Positions 21,199-43,419 of a DNA stretch of 64,000 nt are shown one piece after another. Position numbers and translations under genes: made by a program. The notes below the pieces were generated by a model, which saw nothing but the letters and a program-made list of their open reading frames with translations, was not told the DNA's origin and did not search any database. How positions within the stretch are numbered: the first letter of the stretch is position 1; the number at the start of each line of letters is the position of its first letter. The stretch is from a bacterium (lineage in GTDB: Bacteria; Latescibacterota; Latescibacteria; Latescibacterales; Latescibacteraceae), in contig JAJFUH010000018.1 of the NCBI GenBank assembly GCA_021372535.1, positions 1-64,000 of the forward strand, given 5' to 3'.

Positions 21199-21487
21199 GG
21201 TATATTGGGAAAAGAAATTTGTATTAAGAAAGTCATGGAAAGAAATAAACTGCAGATAAATAAAAAAGGTTAAAATTGAATTATTGGCATAAACAATAGC
21301 GTTTGAGATTTTAATGATTGGCAGAGACTTTTATAAAATTAATCATCGAAGTTGGTAGTAAATTAGGTATTAAAAAAATAAAAGCGAGGATACTATTGAA
21401 AGAATTCAAAAAAGGCTAAATCTAAACGCACATTTAACATACAGAACATTAAGGTAGTTAACAACATAAAAGATAAACAGAATAATA
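21199..21487. other. AT-rich gap at the left edge of the first island
   Basis: Composition drops sharply in GC directly after dprA. I see no gene, RNA or clear repeat in this stretch. It ends at the stop of the minus-strand 186-aa gene. Confidence 0.5.
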
Positions 21488-22048
21488 TTATACTGGGAGG
21501 CCTATTCTATTAAGATAATCTGCAAATCTTTGTGATAATCTTTCTCTATAAATTTCATTAACGGTTCCTAAATAATAATTAATATAATGGATTAGAGTAT
21601 AATCAAATGATACAGTGTAATATAATTTAAAATCAATAATCAATTCTGGTATTTGGTAATCCTTATAACTTGGTAAAAAATGATATCTTGTTTCGTTTTG
21701 CTTTTTAATCCTATCTATTTTGCTAGAATTTAGTCGTTCCTGTTTTATTTTATAGATACCAATTAAATGTTCGCCTTCTTTAATAATATCCAACGGGAAG
21801 GCAGGAATAAATAATATACTTGGTACAAATTGATTAAAGAATTCATTCTCATCTGTATTATTTTTTTTCTCAAAATAACTTTTTAGATCACAATCTTGTG
21901 TAATTATAATAATATAATTATAAAAACCTTTAATTACTTCATTTGTTGAATTAATATAATAGAAAGAGAAATCTCTCAATATATCACCTTGACATATTCT
22001 CTCTCTGTCATGAAATACATAAGGTTTTTCAATTTTACTCTTGAACAT
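21488..22048 (-). CDS. 186-aa protein of unknown function, third gene of the island module
   Basis: I do not recognise a named family. The product has ICQGDILRDFSF near residue 18 and a strongly hydrophobic IIIITQDCDL near residue 47, both of which look like conserved motif material, and an alpha/beta pattern with no signal peptide or clear membrane span. Its ATG lies inside the 59-codon gene (14-base overlap), so translation is probably coupled. Base composition is far more AT-rich than the flanking chromosome, which suggests transfer. The order TIGR04255-like, small gene, this gene looks like a functional unit. Confidence 0.65.
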   Translation of the reverse strand: MFKSKIEKPYVFHDRERICQGDILRDFSFYYINSTNEVIKGFYNYIIIITQDCDLKSYFEKKNNTDENEFFNQFVPSILFIPAFPLDIIKEGEHLIGIYKIKQERLNSSKIDRIKKQNETRYHFLPSYKDYQIPELIIDFKLYYTVSFDYTLIHYINYYLGTVNEIYRERLSQRFADYLNRIGLPV

Positions 22049-22214
22049 GACCTATTATCTTAGATTTTGCTCTTATTTTCCTGTATCTGCTAGAATCACT
22101 AGAATCAATTATTGAATCATAATGTTTGTCATTATCAATAGAAACATCTTCATTTCCGTATGAAAATGATTCTGGTGAATGTTTATCTTTTTCATCAAGA
22201 TATTTGTGATTCAT
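22035..22214 (-). CDS. 59-aa acidic/polar small protein linking the island genes
   Basis: A 59-codon frame starts MNHKYLDEKDKHSPESF and ends KSKIIGHVQE. It overlaps the upstream TIGR04255-like gene by 20 bases and the downstream 186-aa gene by 14, the geometry of a coupled operon. An AGG-rich sequence lies just before the ATG (GGAGG at about 22221-22225 on the minus strand). It is Ser/Asp-rich (IIDSSDSSRYRKIR) and probably poorly structured. Small size makes this uncertain, but the double overlap and ribosome binding site support a real gene. Confidence 0.5.
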   Translation of the reverse strand: MNHKYLDEKDKHSPESFSYGNEDVSIDNDKHYDSIIDSSDSSRYRKIRAKSKIIGHVQE

Positions 22215-22959
22215 TGTTAACCTCCATTAGGCTTCTCAAATCTTTTTTAATGCTTTTTTCAAATAATAATTTGGCTTCTTTTCTCGCTTTATCCAGAAAC
22301 TCAATCACTCTATTTTCATCATAATCATGGGAATAACAATCAATATCAATAATAAATTCTTTTCTTGATATTTTTGCTGGGTATTCTGGATTGTATATAC
22401 CACAAATATAGTTAATACTTAAATCCTCTTTATTAATAGTTGAAGTTGTCATGATTCTCGACAATGTATCTTTATCATTGAAAAAATCTATTGGAGAAAT
22501 TAATTTGGTGTTTATATAATTATTCCATTCTAATGGATTACCAGTCCTAATAATTATTTCATTAATGTATCTTAGACCAATTCTTTTAATGTTCAAAGGT
22601 CGATAAATAACAGAAAATACATCATATAAATTTTTAACATCATTTTTAAAATCATGAAAATTTATATATTTTTGATTTTCAAGTGATACAAAATTATATT
22701 GGATTAAAATAGTCTTGTTTTTCTTGGGATTGTATATTCTATGAATATTATGAATACCTGGTCGTTCAAGTTTTATTTCACCATCAGGTAATTTCGTTGT
22801 TTGTATTAAATTTTCTATTTTGTTATTATATTCTGGAAATTCCATTCTGACTTTTTCTTGTAATTCAATGGGTAATTCAGTGTCGATTTTTAGAATTGGT
22901 GAGAAATCTATTCTAAAAATTACATTGGTTAAGAAATTTTTTGCGTAACTCTTTGACAT
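22195..22959 (-). CDS. TIGR04255-like family protein
   Basis: The 254-aa product resembles the sporadically distributed TIGR04255 family: a start with YAKNFLTNVIFRIDF, a central beta-rich part, and the hallmark RIGLRYINEI near residue 126, ending with a helical C-terminus (VIEFLDKARKEAKLLFEKSI). Family function is unknown. It is the first gene of a three-gene minus-strand set in an AT-rich island between dprA and rplM. The sporadic family distribution and island position would fit an accessory or defence-like module, which is inference only. Confidence 0.7.
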   Translation of the reverse strand: MSKSYAKNFLTNVIFRIDFSPILKIDTELPIELQEKVRMEFPEYNNKIENLIQTTKLPDGEIKLERPGIHNIHRIYNPKKNKTILIQYNFVSLENQKYINFHDFKNDVKNLYDVFSVIYRPLNIKRIGLRYINEIIIRTGNPLEWNNYINTKLISPIDFFNDKDTLSRIMTTSTINKEDLSINYICGIYNPEYPAKISRKEFIIDIDCYSHDYDENRVIEFLDKARKEAKLLFEKSIKKDLRSLMEVNNESQIS

Positions 22960-23216
22960 AAAAAACTCATTTGTTGTAAAATTGCGTTCTAGTTAAAAAG
23001 ATTTATATATTATCCTTGTTTGCATGTCAAGTGAAATTTTACTACTTTTTATACTATATCATTGGTAATAAGTTTCATTGTTCTATTATATTTTTAACAT
23101 AAAGAAGTTTAGTTATTGAAAAAAAACGAATCTCTCAGTCAGCATTACGACACTTCAAAATAATTAGGATCATTAATTATTACGGGAAAGAAATAGGTAA
23201 TCTTTATTGAAGAAGC
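22960..23216. other. AT-rich gap between the island and the rplM promoter
   Basis: No coding sequence or structured RNA is evident. It must contain the promoter of the leftward island genes; a clear box pair was not found. Confidence 0.4.
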
Positions 23217-26028: not shown

Positions 26029-26751
26029 ATGGAACCCTACAGGAGGATACTGCTCAAGCTTTCCGGCGAGGCTCTCTCCGGGAAGCTCGGGTACGGGTTT
26101 GACTCCGCAGCCATGACGAGCTTCTGCAGCCAGATAAGGGCTGTCCATGACACGGGAGTCGAAATCGCCATCGTTATCGGCGGAGGAAACATTTTCCGCG
26201 GGCTCAAGGCTTCCTCGAAGGGAATGGACCGCAGCACCGCGGACAGCATGGGCATGCTTGCGACCATGATCAACGGCCTTGCGCTCCGCGATGCGCTCGA
26301 ACAGCAGGGGCTCACCGCAAGCCACATGTCCTCGCTCCCCGTGACCGGGCTTGTGGAGCCGTTTGTCCGCAAAAAGGCTGTCAGCTACCTGTCCAAGGGC
26401 CATACGGTTATCTTTTCGGGCGGCACCGGCAATCCCTATTTTTCCACCGATACCGCCGCATCGCTCAGGGCTGCCCAGATCGACGCCGATGTCATACTCA
26501 AGGGCACCAAGGTCGACGGGGTTTACGAGGGCGATCCCGTGCTCGATCCGTCACTGAAAAAGTTCGACGTTATTTCCTATACCGAGGTTCTCAAACGGAA
26601 TCTCGGAGTTATGGATGCAACCGCGATTGCAATGTGCAGAGAAAATCATATTCCCATCATTGTGTTCAACCTCACCAGAGAGGGCGCTCTTCTCAGGGTT
26701 GTACGGGGTGAACAGGTCGGAACGATTGTAAAGGAGGTAGAGCATGGATAA
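26029..26751 (+). CDS. pyrH: uridylate kinase
   Basis: The 240-aa product is full-length UMP kinase, with RILLKLSGEAL, VIGGGNIFRG, DRSTADSMGMLAT, FSGGTGNPYFSTDTAA and KGTKVDGVY. It phosphorylates UMP to UDP. The ATG at 26029 follows the tsf stop by 4 bases. The last 8 bases overlap frr. Confidence 0.96.
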   Translation: MEPYRRILLKLSGEALSGKLGYGFDSAAMTSFCSQIRAVHDTGVEIAIVIGGGNIFRGLKASSKGMDRSTADSMGMLATMINGLALRDALEQQGLTASHMSSLPVTGLVEPFVRKKAVSYLSKGHTVIFSGGTGNPYFSTDTAASLRAAQIDADVILKGTKVDGVYEGDPVLDPSLKKFDVISYTEVLKRNLGVMDATAIAMCRENHIPIIVFNLTREGALLRVVRGEQVGTIVKEVEHG

Positions 26752-27301
26752 GGACTTGCGTGCTGTTACGGTCGAACATATGAAAAAAGCCGTCGAACAC
26801 CTCAGCCATGAACTGTCAACGATACGAACCGGCAGAGCTTCCGCCTCCCTGCTCGATACGATCAAGGTGAATTATTACGGGACGCCGACTCCGCTGAACC
26901 ATGTGGCGAATATTTCGGTTCCGGATTCGAAAACGATCATGATCCAGCCGTTCCAGCAGAACCTCATTGGCGATGTCGAGAAGGCGATTCAGGCGAGCGA
27001 TCTCGGCCTCACTCCGAACAGCGACGGCCATGTGATACGTCTGCCCATTCCGCAGCTCACCGAGGAACGCCGCAAGGACATTCTCAAGCTTGTAAAGAAA
27101 CTGGGCGAGGACACCAAGGTCGCAATCCGCAACATCCGCCGTGACGCCATCGAAAAGATGCGGGTGATGAAAAAGGACAGCAAGATCACCGAGGATGACC
27201 TCCACCGGGGCGAAAAGGAAGCCCAGGAGATCACCGACAAACATATTACCGAAGTCGACCAGGTGATCGCTGTGAAGGAAAAAGAGGTCATGACGGTGTA
27301 A
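26744..27301 (+). CDS. frr: ribosome recycling factor
   Basis: The 185-aa product is full-length RRF, with HELSTIRTGRASASLLD, YYGTPTPLNHVANI and RNIRRDAIEKMRVMKKD. With EF-G it splits post-termination ribosomes. The start lies inside pyrH (ATGGATAA overlap), as in many genomes, with AAAGGAGG just upstream. A terminator follows. Confidence 0.96.
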   Translation: MDKDLRAVTVEHMKKAVEHLSHELSTIRTGRASASLLDTIKVNYYGTPTPLNHVANISVPDSKTIMIQPFQQNLIGDVEKAIQASDLGLTPNSDGHVIRLPIPQLTEERRKDILKLVKKLGEDTKVAIRNIRRDAIEKMRVMKKDSKITEDDLHRGEKEAQEITDKHITEVDQVIAVKEKEVMTV

Positions 27302-27407: not shown

Positions 27408-27645
27408 TACGGATAAATTAATGGCTATACTAACCGAAAGTATAGCCCTCTTCATGTCCTTTGAATATACTTCCTTTGTATGGTGCAGGATTACACTGGA
27501 GCAGCGAAACAACTTCCTTTTGTACTTGCTGAGGAAAAAGGACTGAAGGGGAAGGGGGGTGAATTTAAATATTTATATATACACTGTTGTAATTCATTCA
27601 AATGTATAATTGTGATATAGATGCGTTTATAAAATTTAATTTTTA

Positions 27646-28440
27646 TTAACAATTATTCATTATTTTTTGTTTAGTCGAAATGAAAAGATTAGGTTCTATC
27701 TGTTGAGCGGCCTGTATTTTACCTAAAATTGATTTTTTCAATTGAAGAGAGGCGTTTATATTATAAGCGTTTAAATCATCTACTATTTTTTTCCTTAGTC
27801 TATTCGGAACCTTTAAATCATTATCAGGGGAAATCATACATCCTGTAACAATTTTATATCTTTTTTTAGAAAAAAACTTTGTTTTTTCCTCTTTCATTGA
27901 ATGTCCATTTCTTTTAAGTTCTTTTCCTATTTGATAAGACAATGTTTTTGAAATTGATTTATCAGAAGAAAAAGTAATATCGTCTACAAAAACACTAAAT
28001 ATTAAACCATTTGTATGGGCATATTTATTCATTTTATCGAACATGTCTTTGTAAGCCCAAAATGCTACTATTTGACTTGTTGGACTTCCAGTCGGTAAAT
28101 AGTCATTATATACAACCAAATCTGTTAAAAACCAGGCAACATCTTCACACATAAGATATTTATAACGAAATAATTTAAATATATATTCCCGTTTGCAATT
28201 TGGATAGAATGATTTTATATCTATGTTTATAAGATTATTTGCGTTAATATGAAACTTTGCATTATCTACATAACAAAAGCCTTTTTTACCTGAGAATAAA
28301 TAATATGGTAATTCTATGCGAGAAATAAGAATTTGTAACCTTTTTTGTATTTTCTTTATTTTATCAACTGGTTCACAAATTGTTCTTTCTTTACCTTTTT
28401 TATCTTTTTTAAGGTAAATTTTATAATGCTTTTTTTTCAA
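27646..28440 (-). CDS. retron-type reverse transcriptase, main body (N-terminus out of frame)
   Basis: The 264-aa stretch is a retron RT. It shows DKKGKERTICEP (near residue 13), the retron signature NAKFH (NAxxH, 60-64), NIDIKSFYP (72-80), LPTGSPTSQ (115-123), the catalytic box FVDD (151-154, in place of the common YADD) and the retron VTG motif (198-200). RTs of this kind copy part of their own ncRNA into multicopy single-stranded DNA. The frame opens only after a TGA and the first usable codon is TTG at 28440. The missing N-terminus is encoded just upstream in another frame (28437-28553); joined they give about 302 aa, the usual length. So the gene carries one frameshift, natural or from the assembly. 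Strongly AT-rich. Group II intron maturase is excluded by the NAxxH and VTG motifs and the absence of further domains. Confidence 0.9.
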   Translation of the reverse strand: MKKKHYKIYLKKDKKGKERTICEPVDKIKKIQKRLQILISRIELPYYLFSGKKGFCYVDNAKFHINANNLINIDIKSFYPNCKREYIFKLFRYKYLMCEDVAWFLTDLVVYNDYLPTGSPTSQIVAFWAYKDMFDKMNKYAHTNGLIFSVFVDDITFSSDKSISKTLSYQIGKELKRNGHSMKEEKTKFFSKKRYKIVTGCMISPDNDLKVPNRLRKKIVDDLNAYNINASLQLKKSILGKIQAAQQIEPNLFISTKQKIMNNC

Positions 28441-28553
28441 TATAATTTTACTTCAGATAATGACGTCCCTAATAATGTGCATAGCTTTCTTTTATTTGAA
28501 ATATGATATAAGGGACTTTGTTCGAGCTTATATGTTTTAATAGTATTGCCCAT
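28437..28553 (-). pseudogene. frameshifted N-terminal piece of the retron RT
   Basis: A 38-codon frame starts at ATG 28553 and reads through SPLYHISNKRKLCTLLG to a TGA at 28437-28439. That text is typical of the first helices of retron RTs. The ATG overlaps the end of the HTH gene by 17 bases, implying coupled translation. One added base (for instance in the AAAA of GTAAAATTA, near 28446-28450) would fuse it to the main RT frame. A programmed -1 shift is possible, but I see no classical slippery heptamer. Confidence 0.7.
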
Positions 28554-28848
28554 TTTCTATACCTTGAAGAAGGGATATAATTTTTTTTCTTGTAGTTTTT
28601 TTAATTTTTGTTTTAAATTTTTCTTTTATTTCTTGATTTAAATTATCAAATTGTTCAGAAAAAAATAATATTGTCGAGGGCTTTACTTTAAAAACCTCCG
28701 AATATTTTTTAATTAGTTCAAGTGAAGGTGTTTTTTTATTGTTTTCAATTTCAGATAGATAGCTTTGTGAGATTGATAATTTTTTTGCCAACTCATTAGC
28801 CTTTAAATCATGAAATACTCTTAATAATCGTAAAGCTTCATTTATCAT
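28537..28848 (-). CDS. XRE-type HTH regulator of the retron locus
   Basis: The 103-aa product has an XRE/Cro-C1 helix-turn-helix at about residues 5-60 (LKANELAKKLSISQSYLSEIENNKKTPSLELIKKY) split here into KANELAKKLSISQSYLSEIE and the following NNKKTPSLELIKKY. A charged helical tail follows (KIKKTTRKKIISLLQGIE). I chose the ATG at 28848 because GGAG lies 6 bases upstream; the ATG at 28860 overlaps this site. Its stop overlaps the RT start. It lies between the ncRNA and the RT, an arrangement known from some HTH-associated retrons (type VI is a candidate, not proven). It probably binds the inverted repeats around the locus promoter, and could also be the effector or antitoxin-like partner. Confidence 0.8.
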   Translation of the reverse strand: MINEALRLLRVFHDLKANELAKKLSISQSYLSEIENNKKTPSLELIKKYSEVFKVKPSTILFFSEQFDNLNQEIKEKFKTKIKKTTRKKIISLLQGIENGQYY

Positions 28849-28939
28849 AATTATCTCCATAAGAATTTAAGTAAAATTGTGAGTAAGTTAATAATCATTA
28901 AACAATTCAATAAATTTAATGATTATTTGGATAATGATT

Positions 28940-28959
28940 TTTCTATGTTTCCATAGAAA
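28940..28959 (-). terminator. hairpin between the retron ncRNA and the HTH gene
   Basis: TTTCTATG and CATAGAAA form an 8-bp stem around a GAAA tetraloop in the minus-strand RNA, followed by AAATC rather than a T-run. It could limit readthrough, or stabilise or process the ncRNA 3' end. It lies about 30 bases past the candidate a2. Confidence 0.4.
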
Positions 28960-28987
28960 TTTCAGAACCCATTTAACGAGAAATGAT

Positions 28988-29274
28988 ACTTGGTTTCTCA
29001 TTTCTTTTAACCTTTCTACCTGCCAATCATGGTTATTTCCATGAATGTTGACAGATCGCCGCTTAGAAAGGTTAGGTTATCATTTCTTTTGTCCTCACAA
29101 TTTTATTTGAAGCAGCAGTATCGCCAAGCTGCTTTGAGTGACATCGAAAAGAGGAGGAGAAAAACCATCCTACACCTTATCGATGCCCCAAAATTTTGAG
29201 TTGTTGTAACAACTCTCAAGCAGTTTTACTGCTCACATAAAAAATGCGGCATAGACCATATATAGGACCAAGTG
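28988..29274 (-). ncRNA. candidate retron ncRNA (msr-msd)
   Basis: In the minus-strand transcript, ACTTGGT at the 5' end (29273-29267) can pair with ACCAAGT at the 3' end (28994-28988), as a1/a2 do. Next come short msr-like hairpins: AGCAGT/ACTGCT (29219-29233) and GAGTTGTT/AACAACTC (29198-29215); then TCGATG/CATCGA (29180-29185 with 29142-29147) and AAGCAGC/GCTGCTT (29128-29134 with 29110-29116). The msd-like part is a long stem, AACCTTTCTA with TAGAAAGGTT (29064-29073 with 29009-29018), enclosing TCATGG/CCATGA. An outer GAAATGATA/TATCATTTC pairing is also possible. The size, about 287 nt, is plausible. The branching G is not identified. The consensus-like promoter and HTH-RT genes downstream support the call. 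Confidence 0.65.
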
Positions 29275-29280
29275 ATACAT

Positions 29281-29308
29281 AATATACAATATTTAGCGAA
29301 TATGTCAA
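29281..29308 (-). promoter_or_regulatory. promoter of the retron operon
   Basis: On the minus strand, TTGACA (29308-29303) is followed after 16 bases by TATATT (29286-29281), or after 18 by TATTAT (29284-29279). The start point would fall near 29274, at the 5' edge of the candidate a1. Confidence 0.7.
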
Positions 29309-29329
29309 CGTTTATTTCGCTAATAGCGA
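29293..29329. promoter_or_regulatory. inverted-repeat operator around the retron -35 box
   Basis: TTAGCGAA (29293-29300) and TTCGCTAA (29316-29323) form an inverted repeat that brackets the TTGACA box, and TAGCGA (29324-29329) adds a further half-site abutting the second. A repressor bound here would block RNA polymerase. The XRE-type protein of the locus is the obvious candidate, by inference. Confidence 0.6.
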
Positions 29330-29390
29330 TATTTTTTATAGGTATAATTATTTTTACATATTGAAATAGTATTACATAATATAATTATAA

Positions 29391-29430
29391 AACACAGAAA
29401 GGCCCATGAAACCGGGCCTTTCTGTGTTTA
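29391..29430. terminator. strong stem-loop after the orphan sorting-domain fragment
   Basis: AACACAGAAAGGCCC pairs with GGGCCTTTCTGTGTT. A nearly identical hairpin at 32249-32280 follows the full-length paralogue, so gene end and terminator were duplicated together. Confidence 0.8.
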
Positions 29431-29452: not shown

Positions 29453-29719
29453 TTACTTAAGCAGTGTCATCTTCATTGTTTTTGAAACGTAGCCGGCTTT
29501 TACGGTATAGAAGTAAACGCCTGCCGAAAAACCGGATGCATCCCATGTCACGGAATGGTTTCCGGCGCTCATGAAACCATCGGCAACGGCGGCAACCTTC
29601 TGGCCTGCAGCGTTGTAGATATCGATGGTGACGTTTCCTGGCTGAGGAATCGTAAAGCTGACTGTCGTAGACGGGTTGAAGGGATTGGGAGCGCCCTGCC
29701 CACATCGGCTTTGCCGCAT
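29453..29719 (-). pseudogene. orphan T9SS C-terminal sorting domain, gene remnant
   Basis: The frame contains only a T9SS type A sorting domain (GAPNPFNPSTTVSFTIPQPG, then AGQKVAAVADGF, WDASGFSAGVYFYTVKAG, ending MKMTLLK). It has no signal peptide, no ribosome binding site and no passenger domain. Over the domain and the terminator it is close to the end of the gene at 32307-34058, with only scattered base differences. Upstream of about 29700 the similarity stops abruptly. It is most likely the 3' remnant of a deleted or recombined cargo gene. Confidence 0.75.
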
Positions 29720-30006: not shown

Positions 30007-30054
30007 ATTTAACTATGGTTAGATGTATGAATTTGGCTATGGTTGGATGTATAA
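30007..30054 (+). repeat. two 24-bp tandem repeats in the leader of the first T9SS cargo gene
   Basis: Units at 30007-30030 and 30031-30054 share ATTT--CTATGGTT-GATGTAT and differ at about 4 positions. They lie 18 bases upstream of the start codon of the following gene. Confidence 0.6.
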
Positions 30055-30071
30055 AGCACAAGGGAGGAATC

Positions 30072-31871
30072 ATGAAAAAGTGGTTTTTATTTGTTGTGCT
30101 GATGACAGTTTCTGCAACGGTTTTTGCCACAGAATTTGCTCCTACACCGATGAAAATTTCTTCGCCTGCTGTCGTACCGTACGACTTTACGGGCGAAACA
30201 CTGACAATTCCGGTCACTATCACCGGGACGCCTTCGAGCACGTATCTGATAATCAACACTCAAGATCGGGCTGCGAAAATCAGTAAAGTCCAGAATGGAT
30301 ATCTTGGCTGGCATTATGTCAACAAGATCGATACCTGCGTCTATGCATCTGAGGCTATACAGCTCGATGTGGGAAAGAATGAAATCACCTGGAGCGGTAA
30401 GGACAACGACGGCAAGATGGTGCCATCGGGTGAATACACTTACTACATCTGGGGATTTGACAATATCAGCGCAAAAATCCCGATGACAAAACAGATCAAT
30501 GCCACGCGATGGGGCCGTGTCTTCATCATGACAAAGGACCAGGAAGGCAATCAGCTCAACAACCCCATCCTCTGGACAGGCGGCGCGTCGCGTCCGGGGG
30601 GAACAACCCTGACAGCGCACACCAATAAGAAGTGGGTGGTCGGCGGGGATCCGTACGATGCGACCCTTGTCGAAACCTGCAAGACCATGGAAATATGCGA
30701 TTGCGGCCATCCCGCTTTCGATCCCGCCGATTATACGATGTTTTTCAAGGGAGGCCTCACCAACAACGGCATGAAGACCTATTGGAAATTCAAATGGGTG
30801 CCGAATGGCGATGCAATCCTCCAGAATGACTGGGGCGATAACGGCGAATTCAAGTTCTCCTCCGATGCTCCGGAAAAATGGGATTACGGGCCGGGTATCG
30901 TCAGCGATGGCGGCGATTATCTTGTCTGTACCAACGCCGAAACATCCGGCATAACGCAAACGTCCGAGATAGTCTATGTCGACAGAATCACCGGCTCCGA
31001 AGTCAAGCGGCTCGATCTGACCGACTGGTTTACCGATCTCGATGACGCCGAAAAGGGCGGCCAGACCACGGGCGGCCCGACCGAAATCATGTTTCTGGGT
31101 TCGACAATGATCATGGGCTATCATGGAACCTGTATAAACATGCTTGCCGAGTCGGCGTACGAGGACGAGTATGAAGCGGTTCTCTGGGTCAATCAGAACG
31201 GCGACTATACCGGCGACCACAACTTTGCCGCGGATTCACAACGTCCATGGGTATGCAACGACTACAATGTCGGCCCATATAAGTACAATATCACAATCGA
31301 AAAGAATGGTTTCTCTTACTTCACTGCGTACGATATGGGCGCCGTATCGTTCGGACTCTATGCACCGGACGGCACCGGTCTCGGTTACCAGGCGCTCGCG
31401 GGTGAAACCGCCACCCAGAAGTACGATAACATGAATATTTCCTGCGGTTCGGCGTATGACGGTATGCTGGTGTCGAATCAGTCGGCGATTCCGGCTTCCG
31501 GCGCAACCGACCAGCAGAAAGCGGATGCCGTCGGCTGGTTCTGGGTGGGTTCGGATTCGTTCAAAGGAAGGTTGACCGCCAGCTCGGTGGGTGTCGAGGA
31601 AGCTCCCGCCGCCTTCGCGGTAGCGCAGAACTCCCCGAACCCGTTCAACCCCACCACCACTATCGGCTTTACGATTCCCGAAGCCGGCACTGTCTCGGTC
31701 GATGTGTTCAACGTCGCGGGCCAGAAAGTTGCCACGGTGGCGAACGAATTCATGAGCGCGGGCAGCCACTCGGTTGCCTGGGACGCCACCGGCTTCTCCG
31801 CCGGGGTCTATTTCTATACAGTTAAGGCGGGCGATTTCTCCAGGACCATGAAGATGACGCTTCTCAAGTAG
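30072..31871 (+). CDS. T9SS cargo protein with FlgD-like Ig and sorting domain
   Basis: The 599-aa product has a signal peptide (MKKWFLFVVLMTVSATVFA), a FlgD-like Ig element (NEITWSGKDNDGKMVPSGEY), a long middle region with no family I can name, and a C-terminal T9SS type A sorting domain (NSPNPFNPTTTIGFTIPEAG to MKMTLLK). It should pass the outer membrane through an SprA-type channel and be surface-attached or released. The start at 30072 follows GGGAGG. It is a paralogue of the protein at 32307-34058; both share NGYLGWHYVNKIDTC, a GDYxGDHN motif and LYAPDGTG. Function is unknown; the middle may be a beta-propeller-like fold. Confidence 0.85.
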   Translation: MKKWFLFVVLMTVSATVFATEFAPTPMKISSPAVVPYDFTGETLTIPVTITGTPSSTYLIINTQDRAAKISKVQNGYLGWHYVNKIDTCVYASEAIQLDVGKNEITWSGKDNDGKMVPSGEYTYYIWGFDNISAKIPMTKQINATRWGRVFIMTKDQEGNQLNNPILWTGGASRPGGTTLTAHTNKKWVVGGDPYDATLVETCKTMEICDCGHPAFDPADYTMFFKGGLTNNGMKTYWKFKWVPNGDAILQNDWGDNGEFKFSSDAPEKWDYGPGIVSDGGDYLVCTNAETSGITQTSEIVYVDRITGSEVKRLDLTDWFTDLDDAEKGGQTTGGPTEIMFLGSTMIMGYHGTCINMLAESAYEDEYEAVLWVNQNGDYTGDHNFAADSQRPWVCNDYNVGPYKYNITIEKNGFSYFTAYDMGAVSFGLYAPDGTGLGYQALAGETATQKYDNMNISCGSAYDGMLVSNQSAIPASGATDQQKADAVGWFWVGSDSFKGRLTASSVGVEEAPAAFAVAQNSPNPFNPTTTIGFTIPEAGTVSVDVFNVAGQKVATVANEFMSAGSHSVAWDATGFSAGVYFYTVKAGDFSRTMKMTLLK

Positions 31872-32306: not shown

Positions 32307-34058
32307 TTACTTAAGCAATGTCATCTTCATGGTTTTTGAAACTGAGCCGGCTTTTACGGTGTAGAAGTAAACGCCTGCCGAAAAACCGGATGCATCCCAT
32401 GTCACGGAATGGTTTCCAGCGCTCATGAATCCATCTGCAACGGCGGCAATCTTCTGCCCGGCAACGTTATAGATATCGACGGTTACGTTCCCTGCCTGAG
32501 GTATAGTAAAGCTGATCGTTGTTGATGGATTGAAGGGATTGGGAATGTTCTGCGCGACAGCGAATGATGCAGGCGTTTCTTCACCGACTGCAACAGGGGT
32601 GTTTGTAATAGAACCCTTGAGGGAATCGTGGGCGATATACCAGAGACCGGTCTTCGTGTTTTCGTCACCGGTGGAGTTGTTATCCGTATAGATTCCGTCA
32701 TACGCCGATCCGGAGTCGCAGAAGAAATCACCCCTCTTGATACCGGCAGTTTCGCCGGCATACGATAAATATCCGATTCCTGTGCCATCAGGTGCATAAA
32801 GAGCGAAAGAAACCGCTCCCATATCGTATGCGGGTGTCATGCTGAATTGAGTATTATCCGAGGCAAGTGTATAGGTATAGGGCGCCACGTTGAAATCGAA
32901 GCATATCCATGGTTTGGCAGCGTCCGCTTCGGAATTATGATCACCGACATAATCTCCGTCCGTATTATGCCATACCCAGAAATCATCTGATTCATCGAGA
33001 CCTTTCATGGGATTCGCAACCGATTCGAGGCAGGAGGTATGTGAATTCAGGTAAACCAGGCCGTCTCTCACCCATATATTGTTCGGACCTCCGGTCAACT
33101 GGCCGCCCGCTTCGAGATCGGAAGGACTCGCCCACCAGTCGGTTATGTCGACCTCTTTCGCAATGGAACCATCGAAATCGATATAATAAAAGTTAACAAT
33201 TGCCTCTGTCCTGTTACAGTGAGACACATAGAGATAGTTTCTGTCGGTGGCAACACCCGAAAACCAGTTGTTTGAGTTACCACCATTTGCGGAGACAGGG
33301 AGAACACAGGCGCCGTCCGTACCCCATGTGGTAACATGAACGGCATCCCCGTTGGGAACCCACTGGAATTTCCAGACACCGAGATAACCGGTATCATCAT
33401 TGCCGATTTCATAATAGAAGTAATTATGATCGGTGGGGTGCATCTGCATTCTTTCTTTTTCTCCGTATCCCTCAGGCAGAACGAGACTTGTAGTTTCCTC
33501 AAGGGAGCCGTCCACAGGATCATTTCCTATTGTCCACTTTGAGCCCCACATGATATAAAACGGGTTGACAAGGGGCTTTCCATCAGTACCGTACTCCTCA
33601 AAATATCCGGCGCGGCCCGGCACAAGATTCCATACCGTATACACTTTGGTTTTTGCATTCACATTGTCGTATGCCCACAAATAATATGTGTAGTCACCGG
33701 CAGGTACGGTTTTACCGTCCGAATCTTTACCATTCCATGTTATTTTATTGCTGCCTTTGTCGAGAGGTATGAGCTGTGAATTATAGATACAGGTATCAAT
33801 TTTATTCACATAATGCCAGCCAAGATAACCGTTCCGGACCGCTTTGACCTGATCTCCCTTTTCCTTGGTGAACACGCAGAAAATAACGCCAGCCGCTGTT
33901 CCGCTCACTGTAACGGGTATCTCAAGAGTTTTCCCATCGAAACCATACTGGACTGCTGCAGGAGCTGAAAGCTTAAGGAGCGTGGGGCTGAAGCTGGCAG
34001 CAAAAACAGCGGAAGTCATGAACACCGATACAACCATGAACAAACATAGCTTTTTCAT
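32307..34058 (-). CDS. T9SS cargo protein, paralogue of the 30072 gene
   Basis: The 583-aa product has a signal peptide (MKKLCLFMVVSVFMTSAVFA), a FlgD-like Ig element (KITWNGKDSDGKTVPAGDY), an uncharacterised middle with GDYVGDHN and LYAPDGTGIGY, and a T9SS type A sorting domain ending MKMTLLK. GGGAGG lies 6 bases before the ATG at 34058. It runs convergently with its paralogue, each with its own terminator, and downstream of the divergent-looking sensor-regulator at 34395. A role in binding or degrading polysaccharide would fit that neighbour but is not shown by sequence. Confidence 0.85.
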   Translation of the reverse strand: MKKLCLFMVVSVFMTSAVFAASFSPTLLKLSAPAAVQYGFDGKTLEIPVTVSGTAAGVIFCVFTKEKGDQVKAVRNGYLGWHYVNKIDTCIYNSQLIPLDKGSNKITWNGKDSDGKTVPAGDYTYYLWAYDNVNAKTKVYTVWNLVPGRAGYFEEYGTDGKPLVNPFYIMWGSKWTIGNDPVDGSLEETTSLVLPEGYGEKERMQMHPTDHNYFYYEIGNDDTGYLGVWKFQWVPNGDAVHVTTWGTDGACVLPVSANGGNSNNWFSGVATDRNYLYVSHCNRTEAIVNFYYIDFDGSIAKEVDITDWWASPSDLEAGGQLTGGPNNIWVRDGLVYLNSHTSCLESVANPMKGLDESDDFWVWHNTDGDYVGDHNSEADAAKPWICFDFNVAPYTYTLASDNTQFSMTPAYDMGAVSFALYAPDGTGIGYLSYAGETAGIKRGDFFCDSGSAYDGIYTDNNSTGDENTKTGLWYIAHDSLKGSITNTPVAVGEETPASFAVAQNIPNPFNPSTTISFTIPQAGNVTVDIYNVAGQKIAAVADGFMSAGNHSVTWDASGFSAGVYFYTVKAGSVSKTMKMTLLK

Positions 34059-34394
34059 TCTCAACCTCCCTGAGTGTGAAATGATGATGTGATTATCAAA
34101 GAAAAAGTATTAACTACTCGACCATGAAAACACCTCCTTTTGTGAATACTGTCCGATTTCGACATTCCGAGTGTTTTATGCAGATTTAACCATGTAACCC
34201 GGTCTCATGCTGAAACCCGAAACCATGTTATCGGGCGTACTGCCACCCTGCATGTTTTCGCACGACAGCACAATATCTGTTCAGATACTTTTTTTATTGA
34301 AAGGGAATGAAAGGAATTTTATTAAGAAAATATAGTATTGGAATAGTAATTTATTCTATAAACAAAAGGATAATTATTTGACTATTGAGGGACA
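34059..34394. other. leader region upstream of the second T9SS cargo gene
   Basis: On the minus strand a very strong AAAGGAGGTG site precedes a 3-codon frame ATG-GTC-GAG-TAG (start at 34125). It may be a chance or a leader element. No other gene or clear promoter stands out in the 336 bases. Confidence 0.3.
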
Positions 34395-42963: not shown

Positions 42964-43419
42964 ATGAAACGTATTGCCGAAATACTGGATGCCAGTCGAA
43001 TTCGCGATATCAAAGCCTCCACCAAGGACGAGGCGATTGTGGAACTCTGCGGCATGCTCAGGAATGCTCCCGAGGTGACCAATCTCGATAAATTTATTAC
43101 CGCCATTAAGTACCGTGAGGCAATCATGTCCACCGGTATAGGAATGGGGATTGCGATACCCCATTCCAAAACATCGGCGCTTCAGGATTTTGTCGCTGCG
43201 GTCGGACGGTCGAAGCAGGGGATCGATTTCGATGCCCTGGATGGTCTTCCTGTGCACATTATTATTCTCGTCGGATCATCCGATTCGCAGGCCGAGGAAT
43301 TTCTCAAGGTACTCGCCGAAATCGGCGCCTTTTTCAGCAATCCTGATAACAAGGACAGGTTTCTGAGTGCGCGGACACGGAAGAAGATGTTCGATGTGAT
43401 TGCAGGTGAAGAAGCCTGA
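42964..43419 (+). CDS. PtsN-like PTS EIIA domain protein
   Basis: The 151-aa product is a stand-alone EIIA of the fructose/nitrogen type, with TGIGMGIAIPHSKT containing the phosphorylatable His at residue 67. EIIA-Ntr proteins regulate nitrogen, potassium or metal responses. No HPr, EI or permease gene is nearby, so the phosphodonor is unknown. Confidence 0.88.
   Translation: MKRIAEILDASRIRDIKASTKDEAIVELCGMLRNAPEVTNLDKFITAIKYREAIMSTGIGMGIAIPHSKTSALQDFVAAVGRSKQGIDFDALDGLPVHIIILVGSSDSQAEEFLKVLAEIGAFFSNPDNKDRFLSARTRKKMFDVIAGEEA

Follow-up and report, generated by a model that had tools for sequence, protein, structure and literature searches.

The AT-rich island found in a stretch of Latescibacterota DNA (64,000 nt, hereafter the window) raises two questions, namely what kind of element it is and, should it be a retron, what its template RNA is for. 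A sequence-only reading had described it as a probable complete retron, repressed by its own HTH protein and forming a discrete insertion. The G+C profile of the window confirms the compositional part of that description: the island, which is encoded on the minus strand, has 24%–27% G+C versus 49%–60% in the flanking DNA. It lies between frr (26744–27301, plus strand) and a fragment with a T9SS sorting domain, and its order along the minus strand, on which all coordinates below lie unless stated otherwise, is promoter, structured RNA, XRE-type gene and reverse transcriptase (RT).

The PADLOC profiles assign the RT to RT_VI (8.3e-82, with the next best retron type at 4.3e-39) and its partner to HTH_VI (3.2e-31). 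The motifs FVDD, with the catalytic DD, NAKFH (of the NAxxH type) and VTG, from which a retron had first been proposed, are found in the frame at 27646–28452, where they align with invariant columns. Among solved structures, the type VI RT profile is most closely related to the retron RTs Ec86, Ec67 and Kva2, and in a tree of 58 RTs that of the window sits among type VI RTs, apart from the other retron RTs and not with group II introns or DRTs. The nearest rows in this tree are loci of Melainabacteria and of a gut alphaproteobacterial MAG (support 83/91), next to which stand members from Actinomycetota, Fusobacteriota and Bacillota. That the enzyme belongs instead to a group II intron, Abi or DRT system, as the merely generic RVT_1 match of the RT in Pfam (HTH_3 being the other Pfam match at the locus) might allow, is refuted by the PADLOC profiles, by the structural relatives and by the membership of the ncRNA in the type VI family, recognized with an independently built model, and can be dismissed. 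With near certainty, the island carries a type VI retron, as the earlier reading had cautiously suggested; retrons are elements of phage defence built around an RT.

Known type VI retrons (PADLOC components RT_VI, HTH_VI and SP_VI), for example those of Peduovirus P22H1, Klebsiella phage ST147-VIM1phi7.1 and Shewanella phage MuM16-1, share with the window an RT, an HTH gene overlapping the RT start, an upstream small protein gene and a structured ncRNA; the window differs from them in its new host phylum, in a small protein without SP_VI match and in a frameshifted RT. Retrons had been thought to be little documented in this lineage, and the RT_VI is indeed the single one in its genome and among 64 genomes of its phylum. 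Other retron-like RTs occur in 2 of these 64 genomes; two such RTs from the phylum (L128 and L129) have open frames of 588 and 650 aa and are possibly fused to an effector domain. A search of viral contigs with the window RT as the single query found nothing.

The HTH gene (28537–28848, the start at 28848, preceded by GGAG at 28858–28855, being preferred and one at 28860 possible) overlaps the N-terminal ORF of the RT, whose ATG is at 28553, by 17 nt. Upstream of the RNA, a sigma-70-type promoter, TTGACA-16-TATATT, is recognized by its consensus match (29308–29281; 11 of 12 positions), and a perfect 8-bp inverted repeat (29293–29323), with arms TTAGCGAA at 29293–29300 and TTCGCTAA at 29316–29323, flanks the −35 box. 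The overlap, the promoter and the repeat had all been noticed before. To judge from its position, the repeat is a candidate operator through which the HTH protein may repress the operon.

In two relatives of the same family (73% and 69% identity) frr is intact and followed by different genes, with no retron there, which fits a variable site; flanking or target-site repeats that would mark an insertion end were not found at the island. Horizontal acquisition of the type VI retron, with the island as a discrete insertion, is plausible. Downstream of the RT there is a terminator-like hairpin (27423–27447), a pattern match of which 2 were found versus 1.3 expected. On the other side, a perfect 16-bp hairpin (29390–29429; AAACACAGAAAGGCCC / GGGCCTTTCTGTGTTT) that separates the T9SS fragment from the retron promoter is probably a terminator. 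The fragment itself (29453–29719) is an orphan T9SS C-terminal sorting domain of 88 aa; it resembles the C-terminal ends encoded by the two T9SS cargo genes beside it, 30015–31871 (plus strand) and 32307–34064 (minus strand), and looks like a truncated paralogue. A second AT-rich island (21200–23200, about 23%–27% G+C) holds two minus-strand genes, one of which (22195–22959) encodes a TIGR04255-family protein (E 5.6e-37) and the other a protein of 186 aa that matches no family convincingly; it looks like another horizontally acquired module.

As the earlier reading had held, strong folding characterizes the region upstream of the HTH gene (z = −6.85 and −7.75 against shuffles, none of which folds as well); the conserved ncRNA spans 29142–28866 instead of the 28988–29274 then assigned to it. 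It begins with a hairpin carrying a GGCGA loop (29110–29134; GGCGA at 29125–29121), which lies just 5′ of the a1 arm (29094–29111) and is conserved in many type VI ncRNAs. The msr hairpin (29009–29073) follows, with an outer stem formed by 29073–29064 and 29018–29009, a GGCGA bulge at 29060–29056 and an inner hairpin. In the place of msd lies a gene for a small peptide (SP; 28888–29001; MRNQVSFLVKWVLKFLWKHRKIIIQIIIKFIELFNDY, 37 aa), a candidate toxin, and the a2 arm (28866–28883) starts 4 nt past its stop codon. The two arms pair over 18 nt with 89% complementarity (p 0.007 against shuffles), and the core recognized by covariance models (29001–29142) extends from the GGCGA hairpin through a1 and the msr hairpin to the peptide start codon. 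In the predicted fold, the 3′ strand of the msr hairpin holds the Shine-Dalgarno sequence of the peptide (29017–29011) with a pairing probability of 1.0. The earlier reading of the locus missed this peptide gene inside the ncRNA. The stretch after a1 (29072–29095; AAAAGAAATGATAACC) repeats the peptide start region (28990–29013; AAAAGAAATGAGAAACC), and the predicted fold pairs a portion of this stretch with the beginning of the peptide gene. Rfam has no family for the type VI RNA and gave sub-threshold chance matches only. A hydrophobic 21-aa ORF in the 5′ leader (29165–29103; MVFLLLFSMSLKAAWRYCCFK) was dropped as a toxin candidate because no counterpart was seen in relatives.

The window SP, preceded by a Shine-Dalgarno sequence, is basic and strongly hydrophobic, and its 37 aa compare with 42 and 33 in the sister loci L020 and L023. 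It has no match in Pfam, NCBIfam, PHROG or PADLOC, hence none in Pfam, NCBIfam or PADLOC to a type I toxin family, and the Pfam, NCBIfam and PHROG searches revealed no resemblance to known toxin families. The gene nevertheless has counterparts across the type. We surveyed 98 HTH–RT loci from plasmids, genomes and viral contigs, 76 of them with distinct upstream sequence, for an ORF of 36–90 codons that starts with ATG behind a Shine-Dalgarno sequence, ends 20–85 nt before the HTH gene and encodes a hydrophobic or amphipathic C-terminus. Such an ORF was present in 69 of the 76 distinct loci, versus 0.62 expected from first-order shuffles and none in the reverse complement; the seven misses include three Flavobacteria loci with a 78-codon ORF matched by SP_VI, L023, which falls below the length cut-off, and L056, which has an in-frame stop. 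The ORFs have a median of 52 codons and encode peptides with a median net charge of +6 (range +1 to +14); their indels are multiples of three, so that the frame is kept, and a pooled pN/pS of 0.38 over 101 related pairs indicates purifying selection.

PADLOC has a model for the small protein of type VI, SP_VI (PDLC02970), so that the protein as such was already known, and ‘small auxiliary proteins’ of type VI retrons were mentioned in a 2021 phage paper (PMC8541194). The model matched the Flavobacteria ORF and neither the window peptide nor seven of the eight others tested; the window peptide is a counterpart of the SP_VI component by position and physicochemical character. In the literature searched, through which the original classification is known to us second-hand, we found no description of the universality of SP, its physical character or its place inside the ncRNA. 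Loci L003–L008 belong to other retron types and were rejected. Nine RT_VI-like loci (L040, L043, L048, L049, L050, L084, L086, L090 and L091) are without a recognizable type VI HTH gene; in most of them, a small hydrophobic ORF either immediately precedes the RT or overlaps it. Three loci of marine Alteromonadales (L063, L068 and L076) possibly represent a sister subtype: ahead of the RT they encode a hydrophobic small protein (about 60 aa) and then a divergent protein that is HTH-like.

Conservation of the RNA was assessed with covariance models seeded on 10 Enterobacteria loci and extended to 19 and then 25 loci, with the window excluded. The models were grown stepwise from one clade because MAFFT and RNAalifold, applied to all clades together, gave no structure; a descriptor combining GGCGA with a stem and ranked by folding energy was discarded, since that ranking tracks G+C. 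All 19 matches of the first search and all 25 of the second fell at the expected place, and in the 523 kb searched nothing besides the expected ncRNA matches reached E 1. In the window, the best match of model R2 with filters off lies at 29142–29001 (24.2 bits; E 6e-6 in 4 kb and 1e-4 in 64 kb), and model R3 matched the same positions with 28.7 bits (E 4.2e-5). A second R3 match (43135–43263, plus strand; E 1e-3) is taken to be false, being inside a PTS EIIA-like gene, so that the E-values are optimistic and should be read with a tenfold margin; genome-wide, where the first-look filter scored only 150 candidates, R2 gave no match at E ≤ 1e-3, the window included. Two phage loci outside the models scored 68 and 90 bits, with matches ending exactly at the start codon of the small ORF, and seven loci of other retron types gave no match. 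The genes are thus adjoined by an ncRNA of type VI as defined by our own covariance models, not by a published type VI model.

In 20 loci checked by hand, a first hairpin, whose loop is often GGCGA, is followed in order by a1, the msr hairpin, the peptide gene, a2 and the HTH gene, with the peptide Shine-Dalgarno sequence on the 3′ strand of the msr hairpin. In a set of 47 diverse loci, the ORF tends to be enclosed by the best long-range stem (Fisher p 8e-5), and the a1 end lies 60–116 nt before the ORF in 30 of them versus 14.5 expected, in a range picked after the data had been seen; convincing a1/a2 arms were not found in about a third of the loci. The Shine-Dalgarno sequence is paired at 0.82, versus 0.57 in shuffles (p 2e-7). 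Covariation is present in homologous ncRNAs: in the Enterobacteria clade the msr hairpin shows 14 cells changed on both sides, a number reached by none of 500 shuffles, and the a1/a2 helix of a different clade reaches 96.7% pairing versus 36%–54% when slid, with few double changes. Type VI retrons of many phyla thus share an SP gene located between a1 and a2, with its ribosome-binding site, as these folds predict, tied up by base pairing in the msr hairpin.

As is established for known retrons, cDNA synthesis by the RT is primed from a G at the end of a1, and the RNA is read from the position immediately ahead of a2. If the type VI RT follows this scheme, the msd would be the SP gene, the ends of the cDNA being placed by the position of a1 and a2; given that the peptide gene ends just before a2, the cDNA would be expected to run antisense to the message for SP. 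This suggests that, by copying it, type VI retrons silence the message of their own toxin. In the explanation that we favour, if only slightly better than evenly, SP would be a toxic effector, probably membrane-acting, kept silent by the combination of copying by the RT, RNase H removal of the template and sequestration in the hairpin, with the HTH protein repressing its own operon. A phage disturbing the RT, RNase H, the cDNA or the repressor would then allow SP to be translated, and the infected cell would stop. A more tentative proposal, to which we lean somewhat less than evenly, is that the type VI ‘non-coding’ RNA is a toxin mRNA, the msd a toxin gene and the RT an antitoxin acting through antisense single-stranded DNA, with the toxin freed when reverse transcription is blocked during infection. 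Overall, we have moderate confidence in the mechanism; the frameshifted RT of the window, the scarcity of compensatory a1/a2 changes within one clade, the roughly one third of loci in which no convincing a1/a2 pair was found and the dissimilarity of SP to known toxin families speak against it.

A position upstream of the HTH gene, in a structured leader and with the Shine-Dalgarno sequence in a hairpin, would suit a leader peptide, the translation of which opens or closes the RNA and tunes HTH–RT expression or reverse transcription, leaving the HTH protein alone as effector or regulator. However, related RTs with no recognizable HTH gene keep a small hydrophobic ORF, and the conserved hydrophobic C-terminus, the charge of +1 to +14 and the pN/pS of 0.38 argue for selection on the peptide itself, which makes a purely regulatory role distinctly improbable. 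Unlikely, too, is an ordinary tripartite retron, in which SP (or the HTH protein) would be an effector held as a protein by RT–msDNA and the overlap of SP with msd would reflect compact packing with no silencing of the message. Effectors of known retrons are held in RT–ncRNA–RT-DNA complexes (PMC12548924; PMC13405049), and SP, being basic, could bind nucleic acid, but the placement of SP between a1 and a2 together with the burial of its Shine-Dalgarno sequence in msr in most loci exceeds what packing needs.

Silencing of SP by copying of its message would have parallels in, and differences from, several known systems. Like SP, the toxins of type I toxin–antitoxin systems (Fst/Ldr, TisB, Hok) are short, hydrophobic or amphipathic basic peptides whose Shine-Dalgarno sequence is sequestered in mRNA structure; SP has no sequence match to them, and their silencer is an antisense RNA, whereas here it would be reverse transcription of the message. 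DRT2 builds a toxic gene by reverse transcription of an ncRNA (PMC12039810; PMC11100668). There, too, the template in the ncRNA of a reverse transcriptase is tied to a peptide, but it is the cDNA that creates the gene, whereas here the RNA encodes the peptide directly and the cDNA would be antisense. The retrons Ec86, Ec67 and Kva2 have a homologous RT and different effectors, and no peptide has been reported to be encoded in their msd.

Whether the copy in the window is functional is a separate matter. The main RT frame (27646–28452; RT_VI by PADLOC) has an intact catalytic domain, and the initial 38 codons of the RT (MGNTIKTYKLEQSPLYHISNKRKLCTLLGTSLSEVKLY) are in a different frame, which opens with the ATG at 28553 and stops at 28437; the break amounts to one base, near 28440. 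The RT thus departs from the single continuous reading frame of a retron, which lowers the claim of activity, not that of descent, and means that this copy may be dead. The retron that had been called complete does retain its ncRNA, SP, HTH gene and catalytic motifs, but the frameshift renders its completeness doubtful. A one-base deletion that split the RT into two frames (28553–28437 and 28452–27646) and left the ncRNA, SP and HTH unused is a reading to which we give nearly even weight. The RT frame is intact in 95 of the 98 related loci and disrupted in only two, identical to each other, of the 97 others; an identical pair of type VI retrons with a disrupted RT (L087 and L088) comes from one Xenorhabdus hominickii genome. 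Against decay stand the intact catalytic motifs, ncRNA structure, SP and HTH, and the intact frames of the neighbouring rpsB, tsf, pyrH and frr. In addition, the break adjoins A-runs in a draft genome of 236 contigs, so that an assembly error or ribosomal slippage is possible. From its sequence, the copy may be inactive, misassembled or recoded. Decay of this copy, at the same nearly even weight, is compatible with the silencing of SP by reverse transcription, since the latter concerns how type VI retrons work.

To our knowledge, type VI retrons have so far had no clear effector. The HTH protein leaves cell death unexplained, and SP, whose gene occurs in nearly every type VI locus, is a candidate effector that annotation often misses because it is too short, diverse and placed inside an ncRNA. 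The RNA models described here find at least the proteobacterial and window-like members of the type. With SP inside the template RNA and its start site locked in msr, a simple and testable mechanism emerges for the family, whereby the synthesis of cDNA would itself be the antitoxin act.
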